Part shown: in pieces, positions 1-6,503 of the stretch | Layout of the letters: every line of letters begins with the position of its first letter | Position numbering within the stretch: the first letter of the stretch is position 1 | NCBI RefSeq assembly: GCF_023149035.1 | Contig: NZ_JAHXMY010000001.1 | Span: forward strand, 310,001-374,000 | Source: Microbacterium sp. EYE_78 | GTDB lineage: Bacteria; Actinomycetota; Actinomycetes; Actinomycetales; Microbacteriaceae | DNA: 64,000 bases | Direction of reading: 5' to 3' | Notes under the pieces: model-generated | Database searches by the model: none | The model's input: the letters and a program-made list of their open reading frames with translations, nothing else | What the model was told of the DNA's origin: nothing | Made by a program: the position numbers and the translations under genes

Positions 1-1
1 G

Positions 2-703
2 CCCGCCATAGTCACGCGCGAACGGTACGAGGAAATGATGGCGGTCCTCAGCGACCCCGACCGGAAACCGAAGCGGGGCAGGCGAGCACAGGCCCTCCTC
101 TCCGGGATCGCGACGTGCTCGGTCTGCGGCTACTCACTCACAGCGGCGACCTCTCGGAAAGGCAAACGGAAAGACGGCACCGTCCGCGCGTACGAAATCT
201 ACCGCTGTTCCAACAATCAACCTGTAGGCCGGGGCACCCATCCCTCGATACAGCGAGAGATTCTCGACGCGAAGGTCGAGGTCGCGGTCATCGAGCACTT
301 CATACATGCGAAAGACGAGACCCCTTCCCTCGACGCCCTCAGCATGGACGCCGTGGCTGCTGAGCTACGAGACCTCGATGAGCGCAAGCAAGATGTGCTG
401 AGCGGCCTGCAGATGGGTCTCAAGATGTCGGACCTCCGGGAGCACCTGCAGCCGATCCTGGACGCTCAGAAAACCGCTGAGGAGCGTAGGGACGCGATCC
501 TGCGACAGAGCGTGCGTGCCCGCGTTATCGCCCAGGTGAGCGCCCTCCTACCGGGGTCGTGGCTCGCCACCGGGCTGCGAATCGGAAGCATCACAAACAC
601 TCTCCCTCTTGACCAGAAGCGAGAACTCATCCGCGCTCTCTTCGACGTGACGCTAGAGCCTGGAAGCGATGAGGACAGGGTGAAGCTCACGCCCAAGAGC
701 TAA
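2..703 (+). CDS. Large serine recombinase/integrase, C-terminal part (5' end outside window)
   Basis: The frame is open from the first bases of the window, so this is the 3' part of a longer gene. The visible protein begins in the end of the Recombinase domain (PAIVTRERYEE), continues into a zinc-beta-ribbon with a CSVCG pair and a later YRCSN cysteine, and then an alpha-helical, probably coiled-coil region (about residues 115-170). This order is that of large serine integrases, which insert phages and integrative elements at specific att sites through a 5' phosphoserine intermediate. The catalytic N-terminal domain is not in the window. Only one cysteine of the second zinc pair is obvious. 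The methionine at 35 is internal, not the true start. Confidence 0.85.
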   Translation, partial: PAIVTRERYEEMMAVLSDPDRKPKRGRRAQALLSGIATCSVCGYSLTAATSRKGKRKDGTVRAYEIYRCSNNQPVGRGTHPSIQREILDAKVEVAVIEHFIHAKDETPSLDALSMDAVAAELRDLDERKQDVLSGLQMGLKMSDLREHLQPILDAQKTAEERRDAILRQSVRARVIAQVSALLPGSWLATGLRIGSITNTLPLDQKRELIRALFDVTLEPGSDEDRVKLTPKS

Positions 704-771
704 ACGCCGGTTGTCCCCAGCACCGATTTCCTGTGGATAACTACATCGATGTGATTCGTTACCAATCTGTG

Positions 772-793
772 ACCGTTGCACTCGTGCAACGGT
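772..793 (+). terminator. Perfect hairpin downstream of the integrase gene
   Basis: A 9-bp perfect inverted repeat with a CTCG loop starts about 70 bases after the integrase stop codon. No clear T-run follows, so it may end transcription weakly or serve as a recombinase or regulator site instead. Confidence 0.4.
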
Positions 794-1195
794 TATGTAG
801 GCCCGGATGTTGGCTCGAAATCGTGAGGTGGAACCAAAGGTCGGGACCTTGAAGGGGTGCGACGGCACGGAATCCGCTAGCAGGTGCATCCCAGGTGTAC
901 CCGAAAGGTGTAGCCGATGGAGCTTTCCCACAAGGAGTAACGGGACTACTCCCCGTCACTCCAAACGTGCACGCATGCAACGGTAGGACGGGTGCGGAAC
1001 CCACAGCCTAGGCACGGTGTCGCACCCGGAACGTAGACTCTAGGCAAGCGAGAACCCCCCACCAAGAGTTGCCAGTGACGCGGCGATGAGGGGTTCCCGT
1101 AGTTGTATGGCGACCTTCGTCAACAGTGCACGCACTGAGAGACAGGGCCACAGGGATCGCCTGGAGTTGCACCTCTGGGCGGTCCCTGTTCTACC

Positions 1196-1309
1196 TTACG
1201 TCGCCTGCACTAGATAGTGCACCGTACCCCAGACATCGGGCTGGTCGTCGTCGCCGTCAGCGAGCACCTCAAGATGGCGCGCGGCGACTACTGACAGCGA
1301 CATCATCAC
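1196..1309 (-). CDS. Possible small protein (37 aa) between the recombinases
   Basis: A short ORF with a GTG start at 1309, or ATG at 1306, is preceded by a good GGGGGAG ribosome site five bases upstream of the GTG. The product is short and acidic in the middle (a DGDDD stretch) with no cysteines and no membrane segment. I do not recognise it. It sits downstream of the resolvase gene in the same direction (gap about 50 bases) and could be co-transcribed. It may also be a chance ORF. The reading frame extends upstream to 1396 but that part looks like low-complexity shadow. Confidence 0.3.
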   Translation of the reverse strand: MMMSLSVVAARHLEVLADGDDDQPDVWGTVHYLVQAT

Positions 1310-1361
1310 GGGCACTCCCCCGTACGACAGCGTTCGTCCACGGCCCGAGTGCCCTCTCCGA

Positions 1362-1964
1362 CTACGCGGACTCCAGCGCCCTGTAGACGCTCGCACGGCT
1401 CACTCCGAGACTGCTCGTGATCCAAGCAATGGTCTTACCCTCGGCGCGCAGAGTCTTGGCTGCAGCGACCTTCTCAGGGGTGAGGGCGGTCTTAGCCCGG
1501 GGCTTGCGCTCCCCGTTGGCTGCTCGCGCTGCTCTACCCTCTGCAGCGCGCTCCTTGATCATTTCGCGCTCCCACTGAGCGACAGACAACATGATGTTCC
1601 TCAGTAGTGTGCCCGTGATCCCTTCGAACTCCTCACCCTCCTTCAAGCTCCTGACGCGGATGCCCTTCTTCTCCAGGTCCTCGAAGGTCTGGAGGACACC
1701 GAGCACGGTGCGTCCAAGACGGTCCAGCGAGCTGACGCAAACGATGTCGCCACGCCTCGCCCTCCTGAGAAGGGCCGTCAGTCCGGGGCGGTCCATCGTC
1801 TTGCCGCTCATCTTGTCCTCGAAGATGTGATCCTCGATGTCGTCGGCGGGTACTCCCCGTTTGAGGAGGGCGGCGGTCAGGTCTTCCGTCTGCCGCGCAT
1901 AGGACTGCTGCACACTACTGACGCGCCGGTATCCCCACACGTAACCCTGCTGCTCATCGCTCAT
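1362..1964 (-). CDS. Small serine recombinase (resolvase/invertase family)
   Basis: The 200-residue protein has the resolvase fold: the catalytic serine lies in YRRVSSVQQS near residue 16, the conserved SLDRLGRT block is near residues 79-86, and QWEREMIKERAAEGRAAR marks the E-helix/hinge. A C-terminal helix-turn-helix (residues about 160-198, ending GVSRASVYRALES) binds DNA. Length and layout match Tn3/gamma-delta-type resolvases. Upstream of the start lie paired GTCTC/GAGAC sites arranged like a three-part res site. The gene looks leaderless: TACGCT (1971-1976 on the minus strand) ends six bases before the ATG. Likely job: resolving dimers of the circular form of the element. A DNA invertase is an alternative. 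Confidence 0.9.
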   Translation of the reverse strand: MSDEQQGYVWGYRRVSSVQQSYARQTEDLTAALLKRGVPADDIEDHIFEDKMSGKTMDRPGLTALLRRARRGDIVCVSSLDRLGRTVLGVLQTFEDLEKKGIRVRSLKEGEEFEGITGTLLRNIMLSVAQWEREMIKERAAEGRAARAANGERKPRAKTALTPEKVAAAKTLRAEGKTIAWITSSLGVSRASVYRALESA

Positions 1965-1990
1965 GGGCAGAGCGTATCATCTGCTGACCC

Positions 1991-2096
1991 TGTGACTCAA
2001 TATCTGATACATGTCTCAAATGCTGTTTCTGATCGAGCTGAGAGACACTTTGAGGGGGTCGGCGGGACCGTCTCATCTGTTATGCGAGCTGAGACA
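1991..2096. promoter_or_regulatory. Putative res site upstream of the resolvase
   Basis: Two inverted-repeat sites flank a 23-base spacer: GTCTCA-N14-TGAGAC at 2070-2095 (26 bp, 28 with the next matching pair) and GTCTC-N24-GAGAC at 2013-2046 (34 bp). A third, weaker TGTGACTCA motif near 1991 would be the site nearest the gene. In Tn3-type res sites the order away from the resolvase gene is III (25 bp), II (34 bp), I (28 bp), which this matches in order and size. Resolvase binding is inferred only. Confidence 0.5.
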
Positions 2097-2106
2097 CAAA
2101 AGGGGT

Positions 2107-2154
2107 GCCCCCTCCAGGCGAGATTGCAATGAGATACAGGTTCCTGGAGGGGGC
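2107..2154 (-). terminator. Long inverted repeat at the end of the element's minus-strand gene run
   Basis: GCCCCCTCCAGG at 2107-2118 and its perfect complement at 2143-2154 form a 12-bp stem with a 24-base loop. It lies 67 bases beyond the stop of the last gene of the 2221-5490 minus-strand run and before the res region, a position that fits transcription termination. Confidence 0.5.
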
Positions 2155-2220
2155 GGGGTGACTCGGCGGGCGTGGTCTACCTCCACGCCATTTGTAGAAG
2201 TACCGAGTCGGTCTATGGAG

Positions 2221-2412
2221 TCAGGTGCTGAACCGTCCGCGGGCATTCAAGCCGATGTCGGCGCACAACTTGCGAACGGTAGCGAGCGCGCGGCGGGTCT
2301 CATCATTCGTCAGCATGTCAAAGCGTTCGAAGTCTCGAAGCTCGGCCAGCTCACGCATGACACGGCGGGCGACTTCTTCAGGACGGGCGCTTGACGAATT
2401 CAACGCAATCAC
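2221..2412 (-). CDS. Small hypothetical protein (63 aa)
   Basis: The product is charged and mostly helical, with the conserved-looking core RRVMRELAELRDFERFDML. I do not recognise a family. The GTG start at 2412 lies inside the end of the next upstream short gene (stop at 2378-2380), so the two overlap by about 35 bases in different frames, a layout common in phage and plasmid gene blocks. No strong ribosome site precedes the GTG; translation may be coupled to the gene upstream, or may start at an internal ATG nearer position 2360. Confidence 0.5.
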   Translation of the reverse strand: MIALNSSSARPEEVARRVMRELAELRDFERFDMLTNDETRRALATVRKLCADIGLNARGRFST

Positions 2413-2545
2413 CTGCCCACACTTTGAGGCGCGCGATGGCGGCGAGGTCGGCGGGGTCGGTCGTCAACTTGGCCAGCATGTCCAGGCTGCGGGGTAGGCC
2501 GCGGGCGATGCTGGCACTCAGGATAAGGAGCCTGTCACTAGTCAC
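2378..2545 (-). CDS. Small hypothetical protein (55 aa), translationally coupled
   Basis: The GTG start at 2543-2545 overlaps the last bases of the preceding gene (stop at 2538-2540). The translation has a hydrophobic N-terminal third (LLILSASIARGLP) followed by LAKLTTDPADLAAIARLKVW, consistent with two amphipathic helices. I do not recognise it. Its support is the overlap at both ends with genes in the same direction, which gives a gap-free chain from 3681 down to 2221. Confidence 0.5.
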   Translation of the reverse strand: MTSDRLLILSASIARGLPRSLDMLAKLTTDPADLAAIARLKVWAGDCVEFVKRPS

Positions 2546-2735
2546 GGTCGTTCGCCCTCCGAACCTGTAGACGGCGACCGATGGCGGTGCCGATGATGCT
2601 GCGGGCGGCGTGCAGGAGGTTCATGTCCCCGCACGTCAACTCGCTGTCGAGGGCGACGATGGCGCGAGCCAATCCCATGTAGCCGTCCGCGAGGGCGTCA
2701 TCTGTTGCTGTATCTGTACCGGCGAGGATGCTCAT
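2538..2735 (-). CDS. Small hypothetical protein (65 aa)
   Basis: The start codon overlaps the stop of the upstream gene in an ATGA arrangement at 2732-2735, so translation is very likely coupled. The N-terminal half is acidic and threonine-rich, the C-terminal half basic (GRRLQVRR). No known domain is recognised. Small size and coupling suggest an accessory role in the mobile element. Confidence 0.6.
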   Translation of the reverse strand: MSILAGTDTATDDALADGYMGLARAIVALDSELTCGDMNLLHAARSIIGTAIGRRLQVRRANDRD

Positions 2736-3154
2736 GCTGGCCTCGGGCCGTATCGATTTTCAGCGTCGGGCGGATACGTCGCAATCGTCGTGCTCGTTAG
2801 TGGAGTGCCGAACTCGGCGGCGATGCGGGCAAGCTCTATACGTTGCTCGGTTGGGTGCCCGATCCTCTTCGCCTCATTGATCAGGAACTGTCGGCGTGCT
2901 TCGCGAGCTGCAAGGTCGGTATCCCAGGGATGAATGTTTTCCGGTGCGGGTCCGCGCTGGAAGTTGATCTTGCCCCAGCGAGCCTGCTGTTCATCGTCGG
3001 AGAGGTCGAGCCATGACACGCCGTTGCGGTCTTTCGTGGACTCGATCTGCGCCTCGGTAAGCAAGAACTCTTCGCCACGAAGACGAACGCGCCCGTCGAA
3101 GGTGAGTCCGCTGTCTACGAAATGGATCGTGTCTCCGGCTGTGATGGTGGTCAT
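2732..3154 (-). CDS. Hypothetical protein of the mobile element (140 aa)
   Basis: The protein begins with a beta-rich segment (MTTITAGDTIHFVDSGLTFDGRVRLRG would form strands) followed by a helical, charged middle with EARRQFLINEAKRIG and ending in a proline-rich tail. It has no cysteines, signal peptide or membrane segment, so it should be cytoplasmic. The start overlaps the stop of the upstream DNA-binding gene (ATGA at 3151-3154). Function unknown; similar-sized proteins of this layout are common in actinobacterial phages and integrative elements. Confidence 0.6.
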   Translation of the reverse strand: MTTITAGDTIHFVDSGLTFDGRVRLRGEEFLLTEAQIESTKDRNGVSWLDLSDDEQQARWGKINFQRGPAPENIHPWDTDLAAREARRQFLINEAKRIGHPTEQRIELARIAAEFGTPLTSTTIATYPPDAENRYGPRPA

Positions 3155-3681
3155 GAGGGGTCTCCTACAGGGGCAAGGGCGGCAAGGATCGAGCGCCCGA
3201 GGTCTTTGGTTTCGGTCTTCTCGATGAGGGTCTCCGCGAGGGTGCGGGCGGTCTCGGGCTGTGACTCGACCAGGTGTCGGAGGCCTGCGGCGAAGCCGGT
3301 GACCTCGCTGTACATGTCACGGAACGACGAGAGGTCGATGTCGAGCGCACTGAGCTTGCTGAGGATCGAGGTTTCGACGGCAATGGCCCTAGCGATGGCT
3401 GTAGGCGAGCCGGTGGCGGCTGCGGCCTGTCGAGCTGCTCGGGCAGCGTCTGCAGCGTCCACAAGGCGGCTGACGATGTCGAGAGGAGTCGTCTCCTTCG
3501 CGAACATTCGCGCGATGACTGCACGGCGAGAGGCCGAGTAGTTGTAAATCGTGGGGATGCTGACGCTGTGTCCCGCGTCTGCCAGTTGTCGGGCGATTTC
3601 TGGAACCGGCACGCGCTGGTCCAAGAGCCAGTCGACTTTGCCCTGGAGCGGGGTGTCTCTGATCTTGGGTGGTCTTCCCAT
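3151..3681 (-). CDS. Probable DNA-binding protein with N-terminal helix-turn-helix (176 aa)
   Basis: I place the start at the ATG at 3681 (MGRPPKIRDTPL), preceded by AGGAACAGGAC, rather than at the first in-frame codon at 3840. The N-terminus (residues 1-60) looks like a homeodomain-like helix-turn-helix: VPEIARQLADAGHSVSIPTI is a recognition pair. The rest is a long, mostly helical alanine-rich region (residues 60-170). The layout resembles small plasmid or phage proteins that bind DNA, such as terminase small subunits or partition accessory proteins, but no family can be named with confidence. It heads the coupled chain that runs down to 2221. Confidence 0.6.
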   Translation of the reverse strand: MGRPPKIRDTPLQGKVDWLLDQRVPVPEIARQLADAGHSVSIPTIYNYSASRRAVIARMFAKETTPLDIVSRLVDAADAARAARQAAAATGSPTAIARAIAVETSILSKLSALDIDLSSFRDMYSEVTGFAAGLRHLVESQPETARTLAETLIEKTETKDLGRSILAALAPVGDPS

Positions 3682-3989
3682 GTCCTGTTCCTGTCTTGCC
3701 GTAGTGATGGTCCCCTGGGGTGGCTGGCGATGAACTTGAGGAACCCAGCCACCACCAGGGGGTTTTCCCGAAGTCTTTCTAGGGTGAAGTGAGCCCTCAT
3801 CGGGATCGCGATGCCTCTCTGGGCTTTGGAGAACCCACATCGCTAGGTTGAGAGCTGGCGAGACCTAGACGAATCGCTTCGCCCTCACTAACTACTATCG
3901 CGCGCTGGATCAGAAAGTTAGTGAAAAGTCAAGACTTTTTTGAGACAGTAGCTATCAGAATTAGGAAAGCCCAGATCGAGAGGGCGAAA
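3682..3989. other. Intergenic control region of the mobile element
   Basis: This gap of about 310 bases has no supportable gene. It holds a strong imperfect hairpin (3712-3727 with 3745-3762) followed by TTTT on the plus strand, a dyad of TCACTAACT (3885-3893) and AGTTAGTGA (3916-3924), and AAAAGTC-AA-GACTTTT just after it. On the minus strand the last one contains TTGACT, a plausible -35 for the operon starting at 3681. The region is therefore a likely operator/promoter or attenuator of the small-gene chain. Confidence 0.45.
3712..3766 (+). terminator. Hairpin followed by T4
   Basis: CCCCTGG and GGTGGCTGG on the left pair with CCAGCCACC and CCAGGGGG on the right, followed by TTTT at 3763-3766. 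No plus-strand gene lies just upstream, so on the minus strand it may act instead as a leader hairpin ahead of the gene starting at 3681. Confidence 0.4.
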
Positions 3990-4712
3990 CTACTTCTTGG
4001 GAACAACGAGACCGCCTAGAAGGTCTTCGAGGTCGTCGGCGGTCACTGAGAGCGATCCGACACCAGCCAAGGAATCTTCGAGCGAGTGTTCTTCCTTTGG
4101 TTCTCTCAGATTCTCTGCCGCGCCGACGCTCGCGCCGACAGGCGGGAGAGCGACGACAGGCGCGGGCGAGGGAGCGTTAGCGTTCGAGCCTTTGAGTTCC
4201 TTGGAATCCTTATTGTGGGTCTGTGGTTCGCACTCAGTAGTGCTGTGGTTCCTACTGAGTGGGGCTGTAGTTCCTACTCGTTCCGCCTGAGTGGGTCTGT
4301 GGTTCCTACTCGCTGATTCGTCGGGCTTCCAGTCGCGATCCTCGGTACGCATTACGTCGGCAACGAACTTCGACCTCCGGAACCGGTACACCTTCGATGG
4401 GCTTCCACCGTGGCGCTGCAAGTCGACAACCTCGACAGCCTGCGCCCGCTCTAGGAAGGCGAGCACCTTACGAACCGTCGCGGTACTCAGCCCGGTGATG
4501 TCGGCCAGGGCGACCTGAGTAGGACGTACGTCCTCGCCGGTCTTGAAGGTGCCGAACTCTGCCAGCGCCATGCAGACGGCATAGAAGCTGGGCCGCTCGA
4601 TCTTGTTCGCCTTCAGGAAGTAGGTCGGCGTGAACCGAGCAAAGCGTCGAAACTCCCACGCCTGCAGCTCATAAGGGTCGGCGGGTTCGGCAGGGTTCGG
4701 CTTCGTGGCCAT
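3990..4712 (-). CDS. Winged-helix replication-initiator-like protein with origin repeats in its gene
   Basis: The ATG at 4712 (MATKPNPAEPADP) is preferred to the upstream in-frame codon at 4823 because the first 37 residues of the longer frame look like shadow translation. Residues about 20-125 form a winged helix: LADITGLSTATVRKVLAFLERAQAV is a helix-turn-helix followed by a wing ending KVYRFRRS. Residues 130-185 are low-complexity, and the C-terminus is acidic (TADDLEDLLGG). The DNA coding the middle carries four iteron-like repeats. This layout, an N-terminal winged helix plus an origin inside the gene, recalls lambda O-type initiators and phage replication proteins. Function as replication initiator is inferred; a plain transcription regulator is the alternative. 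Confidence 0.6.
   Translation of the reverse strand: MATKPNPAEPADPYELQAWEFRRFARFTPTYFLKANKIERPSFYAVCMALAEFGTFKTGEDVRPTQVALADITGLSTATVRKVLAFLERAQAVEVVDLQRHGGSPSKVYRFRRSKFVADVMRTEDRDWKPDESASRNHRPTQAERVGTTAPLSRNHSTTECEPQTHNKDSKELKGSNANAPSPAPVVALPPVGASVGAAENLREPKEEHSLEDSLAGVGSLSVTADDLEDLLGGLVVPKK
4221..4310 (+). repeat. Four iteron-like direct repeats inside the initiator gene (candidate origin)
   Basis: The 14-base word CTGTGGTTCCTACT occurs at 4221 (as CTGTGGTTCGCACT), 4243, 4265 (CTGTAGTTCCTACT) and 4297. Start-to-start distances are 22, 22 and 32 bases, about two, two and three helical turns. The third unit equals the 22-base unit with a 10-base insertion. Because 22 and 32 are not multiples of three, the repeats are read in different codon frames, so it is the DNA sequence that is being kept, not a protein repeat. 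Confidence 0.65.
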
Positions 4713-4899
4713 GATCGTCTCAATTCTTGAATGCCCTCTGTCGAAGGGCGGGGGGATGCTGAGCGCGGAGACGAAACACGCCCGACTGCATCCCCCCAGG
4801 TGCGGTTTCGACAGCCCGCGCATCTGTTGTACGAGTTCTGCTGCGGGCGCGTTGCCGACGACACGCCAAACGTTGTGTCCGAGCTATGAACTCTCGGAA
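4713..4899. other. Short intergenic region of the mobile element
   Basis: These 187 bases separate the initiator-like gene from the zinc-finger-like gene. An inverted pair around the GGGGGGATG and CATCCCCCC words (4749-4757 and 4788-4797) is visible and may be an operator or terminator. No gene is supported. Confidence 0.4.
4749..4798. repeat. Inverted repeat GGGGGGATGC / GCATCCCCCC
   Basis: Ten-base perfect arms flank a spacer of about 30 bases upstream of the initiator-like gene start. Position fits an operator in its promoter, or a terminator for the gene upstream. Confidence 0.4.
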
Positions 4900-5490
4900 T
4901 CAGTCGTCGTCCTGAGAGGGATTCCAGCTCTTCAACGCCGTCTGCTCAGCTCGCTTGACGCGCGACCTGCGAGCCGTCTCCGCTTTCCACGCTCTGCACT
5001 CGTTACAGCGGCAGCGGAACGACTGGTAGGCCTTGTGGCCGCCGTGGAGGGTGCCAGGGGGCAGGTCGACGGGCACGCGATCTTGATTCGTGATCTGTCG
5101 AGGCCCCCTCTGCTGCTGAGCGCCCTCTGGAAGGGTCTTCGAGGGCTCGACGTGTCTTACCGTCACCTCACGCGGCTGGTGGCGCTCCAGGGCCTCTGAA
5201 CGCTTCCGTGCGGCTCTCTCAGCTCGGGATGCCTCGCAGGTCTTGCACATGCATCGGTCACGCAACACGCATCGGTCGCTACCGTGCTGATGCGATGTCG
5301 GGCAGGTGTACGGTGCCGGGGCCGGTGGCAGCTCCTCGCGGTCGGGGAGCTGATTTCGGCTCTGGGCCACCAGGGCACCCGCACGGGCGACGGCGAAAGA
5401 GTACGCATTGTCCTGACCAAACGCTCGGCGCGCCTCAGCCATGAGTTGACGGATGTCGTCTGTGGGTTGGAACTCGGGTTTACGTTGCAT
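4900..5490 (-). CDS. Cysteine-rich putative zinc-binding protein of the mobile element (196 aa)
   Basis: The ATG at 5490 follows GGGGGAC and is preferred to the GTG at 5499, which would destroy that ribosome site. The first 60 residues are helical. Two cysteine clusters follow: CPTSHQHGSDRC...DRCMCKTC (about residues 70-95) and CRCNECRAWK near residue 165, each with a CxCxxC core followed by a basic helix rich in RRSRVKR. Such paired CxCxxC-plus-basic-helix modules suggest zinc-supported DNA or RNA binding. Related proteins are seen in actinophages, but I do not recognise a named family. It is the first gene of the element from the chromosome side. Confidence 0.6.
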   Translation of the reverse strand: MQRKPEFQPTDDIRQLMAEARRAFGQDNAYSFAVARAGALVAQSRNQLPDREELPPAPAPYTCPTSHQHGSDRCVLRDRCMCKTCEASRAERAARKRSEALERHQPREVTVRHVEPSKTLPEGAQQQRGPRQITNQDRVPVDLPPGTLHGGHKAYQSFRCRCNECRAWKAETARRSRVKRAEQTALKSWNPSQDDD

Positions 5491-5499
5491 GTCCCCCAC

Positions 5500-5702
5500 T
5501 ATCGAGCGTTTACGGACGTCAATTCAGAAAAAACTTGACGAACACAACCAGTCTGTGGTATATGCCGTGTCGCGCATACGATTTGCGTCAAGTGTGGGCT
5601 CTTAGGGCTCATTTCTCGTTCTGCGGGGGGGGGCGTTCTAACTTGCCGTCAGGCGAGGCCGAGTACCACGCCCCGCACTGACCGCGGTCCTAGGGTGGCC
5701 GT
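5500..5702. other. Element-chromosome junction region with inverted TTGACG motifs
   Basis: CTTGACG at 5534-5540 and CGTCAAG at 5586-5592 form an inverted repeat with a 45-base spacer, and GTCAATT near 5518 is a third copy of the TTGAC motif. TTGACG (5535-5540), 18 bases, TATATG (5559-5564) resembles a plus-strand promoter with no obvious gene before the chromosomal one. A run of nine G at 5625-5633 lies near the point where composition turns chromosomal. The exact att core was not found. Confidence 0.4.
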
Positions 5703-5703
5703 G
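5691..5703 (+). promoter_or_regulatory. -10 box of a leaderless promoter
   Basis: TAGGGT at 5691-5696 ends six bases before the GTG start at 5703, leaving no room for a ribosome site. This fixes the GTG as a likely leaderless start. Confidence 0.55.
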
Positions 5704-6503
5704 TGCCCATCGACATCGCGCTCGAGCTCGAGCTCGACGAGGATCCGGATCTCGCGGACGTCATCCTCGTGCGCGTCGCGGCCGAGATCGATGGGGCGCC
5801 GCGGCCGCTCATCATCGACACCGGCGGCGCACGCAGTGGCCTGCCGGCTGGCAAGCTGACCGACGGTCTGACACGGCTGCCGCCGCAGGACGGTGGTGGC
5901 GGCGGAGTGTTCTCCGCGAGCGCGTCCAGCGAGCGGGTCGAAGCGCGCACGATGCGGATCGGCGACCTCCTCGTCGAACGTCCGGTGTTCGACGTCGAAC
6001 CGCACGAGGACGCACCGGCGATCCTCGGCCTCGACGTGCTGCGGCGCCACCGTCTGGACTTCCGCTTCGACGACGCGAGACTCGTGCTCGACGCCGACGC
6101 TCCGGTGGACCGGCGGCGCGAGCTCGTGCAGTCGTCCCGGGGGCATCCGTACGTCGACGTCGACTGGGTGGAAGGGAGCTGGCCCGCGATCTGGGACTCG
6201 GGCGCCAGCATCAGCGTCATCGACCGCGGCGTGGTGTCGCGGCATCCCGAGCGGTTCCGAGCCGCGGGCGCCGCGTCGGGCACGGACTCGTCGGGCGCCT
6301 CGGCCGAGACGCCGCTCGTCCTCCTTCCGGAGGTGACCGTCGGCGGACGCCGGTTCGCCCCGTCGGTCGCGGCCGTCGCCGACATCGCGAGGCTCTCGCG
6401 CCCCGACGATCCCCCGTTCGAACTCATCCTCGGGATGCCGGTGCTCCGCCATGCGAACTGGGCGGTGCACCTGCGCGACGGCTGGTGGGGCTACCTGGTC
6501 TGA
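5703..6503 (+). CDS. Retropepsin-like aspartyl protease, two-lobed
   Basis: The 266-residue protein has two copies of the clan AA aspartyl-protease half-site: LIIDTGGARSGL with Asp39 and AIWDSGASISVI with Asp165. Each lobe also has the matching hydrophobic-Gly motif (AILGLDVL near residue 107 and LILGMPVL near 243). Thus one chain carries both catalytic aspartates, the pepsin-like arrangement, whereas most bacterial retropepsin-like proteins carry one and dimerise. There is no signal peptide, so it is probably cytoplasmic. Substrate unknown. It starts at a leaderless GTG and is followed by a perfect hairpin. It stands alone next to the mobile-element boundary. Confidence 0.75.
   Translation: MPIDIALELELDEDPDLADVILVRVAAEIDGAPRPLIIDTGGARSGLPAGKLTDGLTRLPPQDGGGGGVFSASASSERVEARTMRIGDLLVERPVFDVEPHEDAPAILGLDVLRRHRLDFRFDDARLVLDADAPVDRRRELVQSSRGHPYVDVDWVEGSWPAIWDSGASISVIDRGVVSRHPERFRAAGAASGTDSSGASAETPLVLLPEVTVGGRRFAPSVAAVADIARLSRPDDPPFELILGMPVLRHANWAVHLRDGWWGYLV

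Follow-up and report, generated by a model that had tools for sequence, protein, structure and literature searches.

Replication origins that lie inside the gene of their own initiator are already well known from lambdoid phages and from staphylococcal RepA_N plasmids. In phage lambda, as described in the accessible parts of the papers cited here, the origin is located within O and consists of four iterons followed by an A+T-rich stretch (PMC7466680, PMC5043065, PMC3349717). For the staphylococcal plasmid pSK41, the available text reports that the N-terminal 120 residues of Rep bind four boxes situated centrally in the rep gene, that Rep can do without the residues for which the origin codes, and that the C-terminal domain is a separate one (PMC5703833). 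In Vibrio cholerae, the PLE satellite is, according to the portions consulted, a small integrated element that has iterons and an origin of its own, with RepA as its initiator (PMC7145576). Among actinobacteria, the authors of a study on extrachromosomal mycobacterial prophages suggest an origin that, as in lambda, lies within repA or immediately upstream of it, and in the accessible text an intragenic location goes no further than this suspicion (PMC7157519). A literature search restricted to open-licence papers without preprints, and to titles and the beginnings of abstracts, returned, among the matches listed, no paper on the elements described below or on an intragenic origin in Microbacterium.

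Here we describe a gene on a 64,000-nucleotide stretch of the Microbacterium sp. EYE_78 genome (hereafter, the window). Based on sequence comparison, we consider it likely, with a probability of roughly 0.85, that a 6.4-kb integrative element has its replication initiator encoded at 3990-4712 and that the origin of the element is located in the middle of this gene's coding sequence.

Results

The integrative element

The gene is part of an element of 6,413 bp that coincides with a dip in the G+C content of the chromosome (Table 1). The left core copy is found near the 3' end of a gene for a siderophore-interacting protein (Pfam SIP, E 1.6e-26). Eleven loci were found in relatives, six of which were compared, and in all six the site is empty: the match to the SIP gene reaches the core and then proceeds, for 28 to 37 bases counted from the core, as the window does from 5652 onward. 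This continuity at the core defines an element of 6,413 bp that replaces the last codons of the SIP gene, and, together with the integrase and the att core, the empty sites indicate that the element is mobile. No tRNA gene was predicted near either element end.

Table 1. Features of the element in window coordinates, with the strand on which each is read.
Feature	Position	Strand	Remarks
Large serine integrase, 478 aa, 3' part in window	1..703	+	Starts at window -733; Resolvase, Recombinase and Zn-ribbon domains
Small serine recombinase (resolvase/invertase type)	1362..1964	-	Related ORF in 6/8 other loci
140-aa protein	2732..3154	-	Related ORF in 6/8 other loci
Protein with HTH and long helices, 176 aa	3151..3681	-	Direct match in 5/8 other loci; sixth (G595) linked via other members
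Putative initiator gene, 240 aa, ATG at 4712	3990..4712	-	phrog_678 'replication initiation O-like', E 9.5e-6
Predicted short C-terminal helix, residues 225-233	4014..4040	-	AlphaFold2, block pLDDT 51-56; candidate contact point for host replication proteins
Hairpin, outer arms CCGCGCC/GGCGCGG, inner GTCGC/GCGTC (4/5 inner pairs)	4118..4165	-	Compensatory changes
Candidate unwinding stretch	4172..4216	-	A+T 0.53 vs 0.39 for the gene
Box ACAATAAGGAT	4206..4216	-	ACAATAGGAAT in 5/7 genes, ACAATAAGACC in G595
Iteron copy with 2 mismatches, separated from the box by four bases	4221..4234	+	CTGTGGTTCCTACT match
Iteron copy, exact	4243..4256	+	CTGTGGTTCCTACT match; within perfect 7-bp dyad TCAGTAG...CTACTGA (gene strand)
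Iteron copy, 1 mismatch, then 10-bp insert	4265..4278	+	CTGTGGTTCCTACT match
Exact iteron copy, the first along the gene	4297..4310	+	CTGTGGTTCCTACT match
Predicted winged-helix codons, ~residues 17-127	4332..4664	-	AlphaFold2 model on two sequences; generic fold matches
Cys-rich protein upstream of putative initiator, same direction	4900..5490	-	Direct match in 2/8 other loci, G353 and G595 only
attR core GGCGAGGC, 8 bp	5652..5659	+	attL copy at C1:309239-309246 (window -761 to -754)

Between the integrase and the small recombinase, the roughly 650 bp of window 704-1361 lack a convincing gene. This region, possibly a resolution site, holds repeats of the TGCACTCGTGCAACGGT type at 777-793 and 968-984, also in inverted orientation, as well as the one perfect DnaA box of the element (732-740, minus strand); inside the candidate origin, no DnaA box was found at one mismatch. 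The 176-aa protein, for which a terminase-like role was considered, gave no informative match either by sequence (Pfam, PHROGs) or by fold (predicted model). It was the protein examined for a function in redirecting the packaging of a helper phage, such as that of a small terminase, which would mark a phage satellite of the PICI type. No gene for a P-like helicase loader was recognised among the seven element ORFs other than the putative initiator gene (Pfam, PHROGs, E 1); it is possible that the element encodes a loader that escaped recognition.

The putative initiator protein and its distribution

The best sequence matches of the protein family are weak ones to replication-initiator profiles in PHROGs, among them the O-like ones. 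Besides the window protein, the O-like profile matched the homologs from genomes G460 (E 2.8e-7) and G579 (E 1.9e-5), and the better of phrog_678 and phrog_391 gave E values of 2.8e-7 to 0.005 in five of the six homologs, a weak but recurrent signal; the sixth, G400, had no phrog match at E 0.1. phrog_678 also matched in 8 of 14 control genomes. Pfam returned generic HTH matches below the cut-off for the window protein, and no match to RepA_N (PF06970) at E 1 for the window protein or at E 0.1 for the six homologs. Given that the protein is not of the RepA_N type by sequence and has a weak O-type match, we class it as working like lambda O or pSK41 Rep; it is probably a relative of the O-type initiators.

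An AlphaFold2 model of the window protein, built on an alignment of two sequences, has a mean pLDDT of 60, with block means of 81-93 for residues 11-50, 71-90, and 111-120, and of 54-74 for residues 51-70 and 91-110. Wing strands are predicted at residues 93-101 and 104-112, and residues 128-223, modelled with low confidence, are taken as disordered. Searches with this model (Foldseek, VIA) recovered generic winged helices, mostly of regulators and transcription factors. Foldseek gave no match at E 0.001, no replication initiator appeared among the VIA matches listed, and the RepA_N fold was absent among the fold matches listed, two absences that do not speak against such a fold.

Searching 99 genomes of the genus at E 0.01 yielded five matches, three of which were strong, including the window's own, and two of which (G330 and G308) covered the tail only. 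With a 3-row profile and E 0.001, ten matches were obtained in 315 genomes of the genus, a set that overlaps the 99; seven were strong, and a fragment in G472 (profile positions 48-83 of 125) and partial matches in G441 and G505 (E 3e-4 and 5e-4) were set aside. In 299 genomes of the family, the single protein gave 3 matches and a 7-row profile gave 16, the strong one being the window's own each time. Strong homologs are thus rare, the full-length ones numbering seven, those of the window, G400, G401 (Microbacterium allomyrinae BWT-G7), G579, G460, G595, and G458, all from one genus. By tblastn, the window protein matched neither plasmids nor phages, the proteins of G400, G401, G579, and G458 matched no phage, and those of G401 and G579 matched no plasmid; a distant DNA search of plasmids also found none. 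No viral contig matched the window protein, the 3-row alignment, or two exact DNA patterns, and in a collection of genome contigs, the single protein found none and the 3-row alignment one, G401 itself.

Eight other loci, including those of G472 and G353, were compared with the window element, and the initiator was matched in six of them. Apart from the initiator and an integrase, the G400 locus has little in common with the window, and that of G472 has no shared ORF. The window, G400, G401, and G460 have a large serine integrase nearby, and G579 and G458 one of the tyrosine type, with a relative near G595. At G401 (L047:7154-9295), the initiator gene points the opposite way to the genes on either side, which is not the case in the window, G460, G579, G595, and G458. 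At G353 (L007:1428-1611), the neighbours are shared and the initiator gene is shorter by 489 bp, in frame, relative to that of G595. The winged helix, the repeats, and the box described below are all absent together from this gene, and the hairpin is kept. Since what remains on either side of the gap matches the full gene, a deletion is the simpler reading.

The iteron array

Inside the putative initiator gene, CTGTGGTTCCTACT recurs in four near-copies on the plus strand, two exact and two inexact, spaced 22, 22, and 32 bp apart (Table 1). The preliminary description of this DNA had reported the four copies and their spacings and had read the longer step as an exact 10-base insertion; both observations were borne out, the 32-bp step being the 22-bp unit plus ten extra bases, CGTTCCGCCT, placed after the core. 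Its proposal that the spacing preserves helical phase is a matter of arithmetic in a single element; in the relatives, the steps are 21, 22, and, in one case, 23 bp. As the gene is read from the minus strand, the array codes for approximately residues 135-164, directly behind the winged helix. When the codon order of the gene was shuffled 1000 times and 14-mers differing from one of their number at no more than 2 positions were counted within 130 bp of the gene, 743 shuffles gave one copy, 257 gave two, and none gave three, compared to the four observed. Allowing up to three mismatches, CTGTGGTTCCTACT has 6 matches across the window, compared to a mean of 1.21 in shuffled sequence, with 0 of 100 shuffles reaching 6; the two matches outside the array, at 826 and 13853, are scattered. 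At up to two mismatches, the element, including the start of the operon, holds no further copy of the repeat unit, the nearest having 3 and 4 mismatches.

The idea that the repeats generally have dyad symmetry was considered and dropped, since its shuffle support is confined to one window context. There, 1 of 300 shuffles reached the observed symmetry, compared to 127 in the other window context, and among the homologs, the corresponding counts were 24 for G460, 34 for G458, and 199-248 for the rest.

All seven full-length genes, the window's included, have direct repeats in the part that follows the winged-helix codons and precedes the tail. The steps are 32, 22, and 22 bp in the window, 22 bp in G460 and G595, 23, 22, and 22 bp in G458, and 21 bp in G400, G401, and G579. 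Of 100 codon shuffles per gene, none reached the observed copy number for the window, G400, G401, and G458, and one did so for G579 and G460. For G595, this test failed, with 82 of 100 shuffles reaching the copy number, and the evidence consists instead of two adjacent exact 22-bp copies. The homologous proteins share 35-45% identity, and the position of the repeats is constant despite their changed sequence. The differing repeat sequences imply that it is the array itself that is kept and not its letters, and the 22-bp steps in four members, which break the reading frame, imply that it is kept as DNA; over the window array, the peptide has no repeat. These results agree with the argument in the preliminary description that a spacing indivisible by three reflects selection acting on DNA, as does the second frame in which the box is read in G458. 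Loss of the repeats from homologous genes had been named there as an outcome that would speak against an origin, and the opposite was found, all seven genes having kept them. The reading of the array as the replication origin of the element, put forward in that description, is thus supported by the comparison.

The sequence of the putative recognition helix goes together with the spacing: HHxTI is found in the three of seven genes with 21-bp steps (G400, G401, G579) and TVR in the four with 22-bp steps (window, G460, G595, G458), a split that may reflect shared descent.

Box, A+T-richer stretch, and hairpin

Three further features of the gene, namely a box, an A+T-richer stretch, and a hairpin, as well as the borders of the element and the element family, lie beyond what the preliminary description covered. 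The box is found close behind the last repeat, with a search pattern that was widened to take in the forms of the window and G595, and six genes share its codon phase, G458 having it in another frame. In all seven genes, the 45 nt from the box onward have an A+T content above the gene average (0.47-0.67 vs 0.39-0.48). In G595, this is marginal, at 0.47 for the stretch vs 0.45 for the gene, and part of the gene's own upstream flank has 0.50.

A G+C-rich inverted repeat lies 19 nt (G595) to 52 nt behind the box, and 40 nt behind it in the window. In the outer stem, 55 of 56 cells (7 pairs in 8 sequences) are standard pairs, and changes in both partners are seen at 5 of the 7 pairs, at four of them in one sequence only. 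When right arms were swapped among the sequences, 11 of 10,000 trials reached the pairing score, a figure obtained with arms placed by eye, which favours pairing. The inner stem is absent in G401 and has 3 of 5 pairs in G460. Folding z-scores were -1.0 for G460, -1.5 for the window, -1.8 for G579, -2.4 for G595, -2.8 for G400, -3.3 for G401, where the fragment holds a second hairpin, and -4.8 for G458. The window and G353 are 91% identical over 46 bases of the hairpin region, with four differences, all nonsynonymous as judged by eye. A strict pattern fitted to these two, and too strict for the other members, matched 2 of 295 genomes of the genus, exactly those two. Rfam gave no match at gathering scores in window 1-6000.

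Arrays in more distant O-like genes

We also examined 38 rows of more distant candidates, comprising 30 loci matching the O-like profile, 2 weak relatives from the family search with the single protein, and 6 of the 16 foreign loci from the 7-row profile. Arrays matched by 0 of 30 shuffles were found in 11 of the 38 rows, corresponding to 10 of 37 distinct genes, two of which (L024 and L028) have their repeats in common; the other rows, which include many short MarR-like matches, failed the shuffle test. Given these ten genes, it seems common for O-like genes in this bacterial family to contain iterons, as judged from chosen rows and not from a systematic count. In L015, L018, and L027, and less regularly in L068, the iterons are followed by the motif ACCAYCA every 10-11 bp, perhaps an unwinding element.

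Discussion

The most plausible alternative to an intragenic origin, though still an improbable one, is that the protein regulates transcription and that the repeats are its operators, acting in autoregulation or antisense control without a role in replication. Matches in Pfam to winged helices of the GntR, Crp, and MarR types would fit such a regulator, as would the nearest solved folds, most of which belong to regulators and transcription factors. However, the array is located in the middle of the gene and not at a promoter, there are no extra copies with up to two mismatches near the start of the operon, and no sigma-70-like promoter was found in 3600-5700, although actinobacterial promoters may differ from that model. 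The phage profiles, moreover, favour replication initiation proteins.

It is far less likely that the repeats constitute a centromere-like partition or incompatibility site bound by the winged-helix protein. A centromere-binding winged helix of a plasmid (4rs8, Z 6.6) is among the VIA matches and TubR among those of Foldseek, both in the range expected for a common fold, but none of the eight element ORFs scanned encodes a ParA- or TubZ-like protein. We give even less credence to a tandem protein repeat, in which the DNA would repeat merely because the peptide does. The 21-bp step does produce a heptapeptide repeat in G400 and G401; in the window, G460, G595, and G458, however, the 22-bp step shifts the frame, and yet the DNA repeats.

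If the gene is instead an initiator that carries its own origin, as we favour, the N-terminal winged helix would bind the direct repeats as iterons, and the resulting protein array would open the A+T-richer stretch from the box onward. On a disordered linker encoded by the origin itself, the C-terminal tail would then bring in host replication proteins, and the excised circle would replicate from the intragenic origin. Binding, opening, helicase recruitment, and replication are inferred steps; the array, its recurrence at one position in seven of seven genes, the box, the compensatory changes of the hairpin, and the borders of the element are observed. This reading is favoured by an array beyond chance expectation, by its constant position in diverged homologs, by frame-breaking 22-bp steps, by the link of helix sequence and spacing, by the joint loss of winged helix, repeats, and box in G353, by the lack of further copies of the unit elsewhere in the element, and by the O-like profile matches. 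Against it stand the weakness of these profile matches, the generic nature of the winged-helix fold, the modest A+T excess, and the shuffle result for G595. A more tentative extension, which we regard as possible but doubtful, is that the 720-bp gene amounts to a complete replicon of an actinobacterial family of integrative elements, uniting initiator, iterons, opening box, and a hairpin that aids loading or priming on single-stranded DNA, with the host helicase recruited directly by the C-terminal peptide and no loader encoded by the element.

The gene is a candidate 0.7-kb replicon for Microbacterium vectors. Across the family, repeats and winged helices both change and so offer natural pairs of initiator and origin for tests of specificity, and G353 represents a natural deletion in which the binding domain and the sites presumed for it are lost at once.

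In its order of DNA-binding codons, iterons, and an A+T-richer stretch within the initiator gene, the locus resembles lambda O and ori-lambda. The lambda iterons, as described in the accessible text, are inverted repeats of 18-19 bp bound by O dimers, whereas those of the window family are direct repeats with steps of 21-22 bp, and in contrast to the inverted repeats of lambda, a clear dyad is present in the window only. Lambda O has the partner P, whereas no loader-like gene was recognised in the window element. In lambda, an inverted repeat also adjoins the A+T-rich part; a search of one of the lambda papers cited found no such term. For the box and the hairpin of the window family, the available portions of the lambda descriptions hold no counterpart that we could find (PMC7466680, PMC5043065, PMC3349717). 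The likeness to pSK41 Rep lies in a DNA-binding N-terminus, sites in the middle of the gene, and a separate C-terminal part. According to the accessible text, however, the C-terminus of Rep is a five-helix domain, whereas a single short helix is predicted for the window protein, and, unlike pSK41-type proteins, neither the window protein nor its six homologs match RepA_N in Pfam. The iterons of PLE are noncoding and its RepA belongs to RepA_N, as far as the portions consulted describe them, whereas the window iterons are intragenic and the protein is non-RepA_N by sequence. Finally, for the RepA of mycobacterial prophages, which is likewise actinobacterial, the available text reports no repeated motifs in the regions searched (PMC7157519), whereas in the window the repeats are plain.
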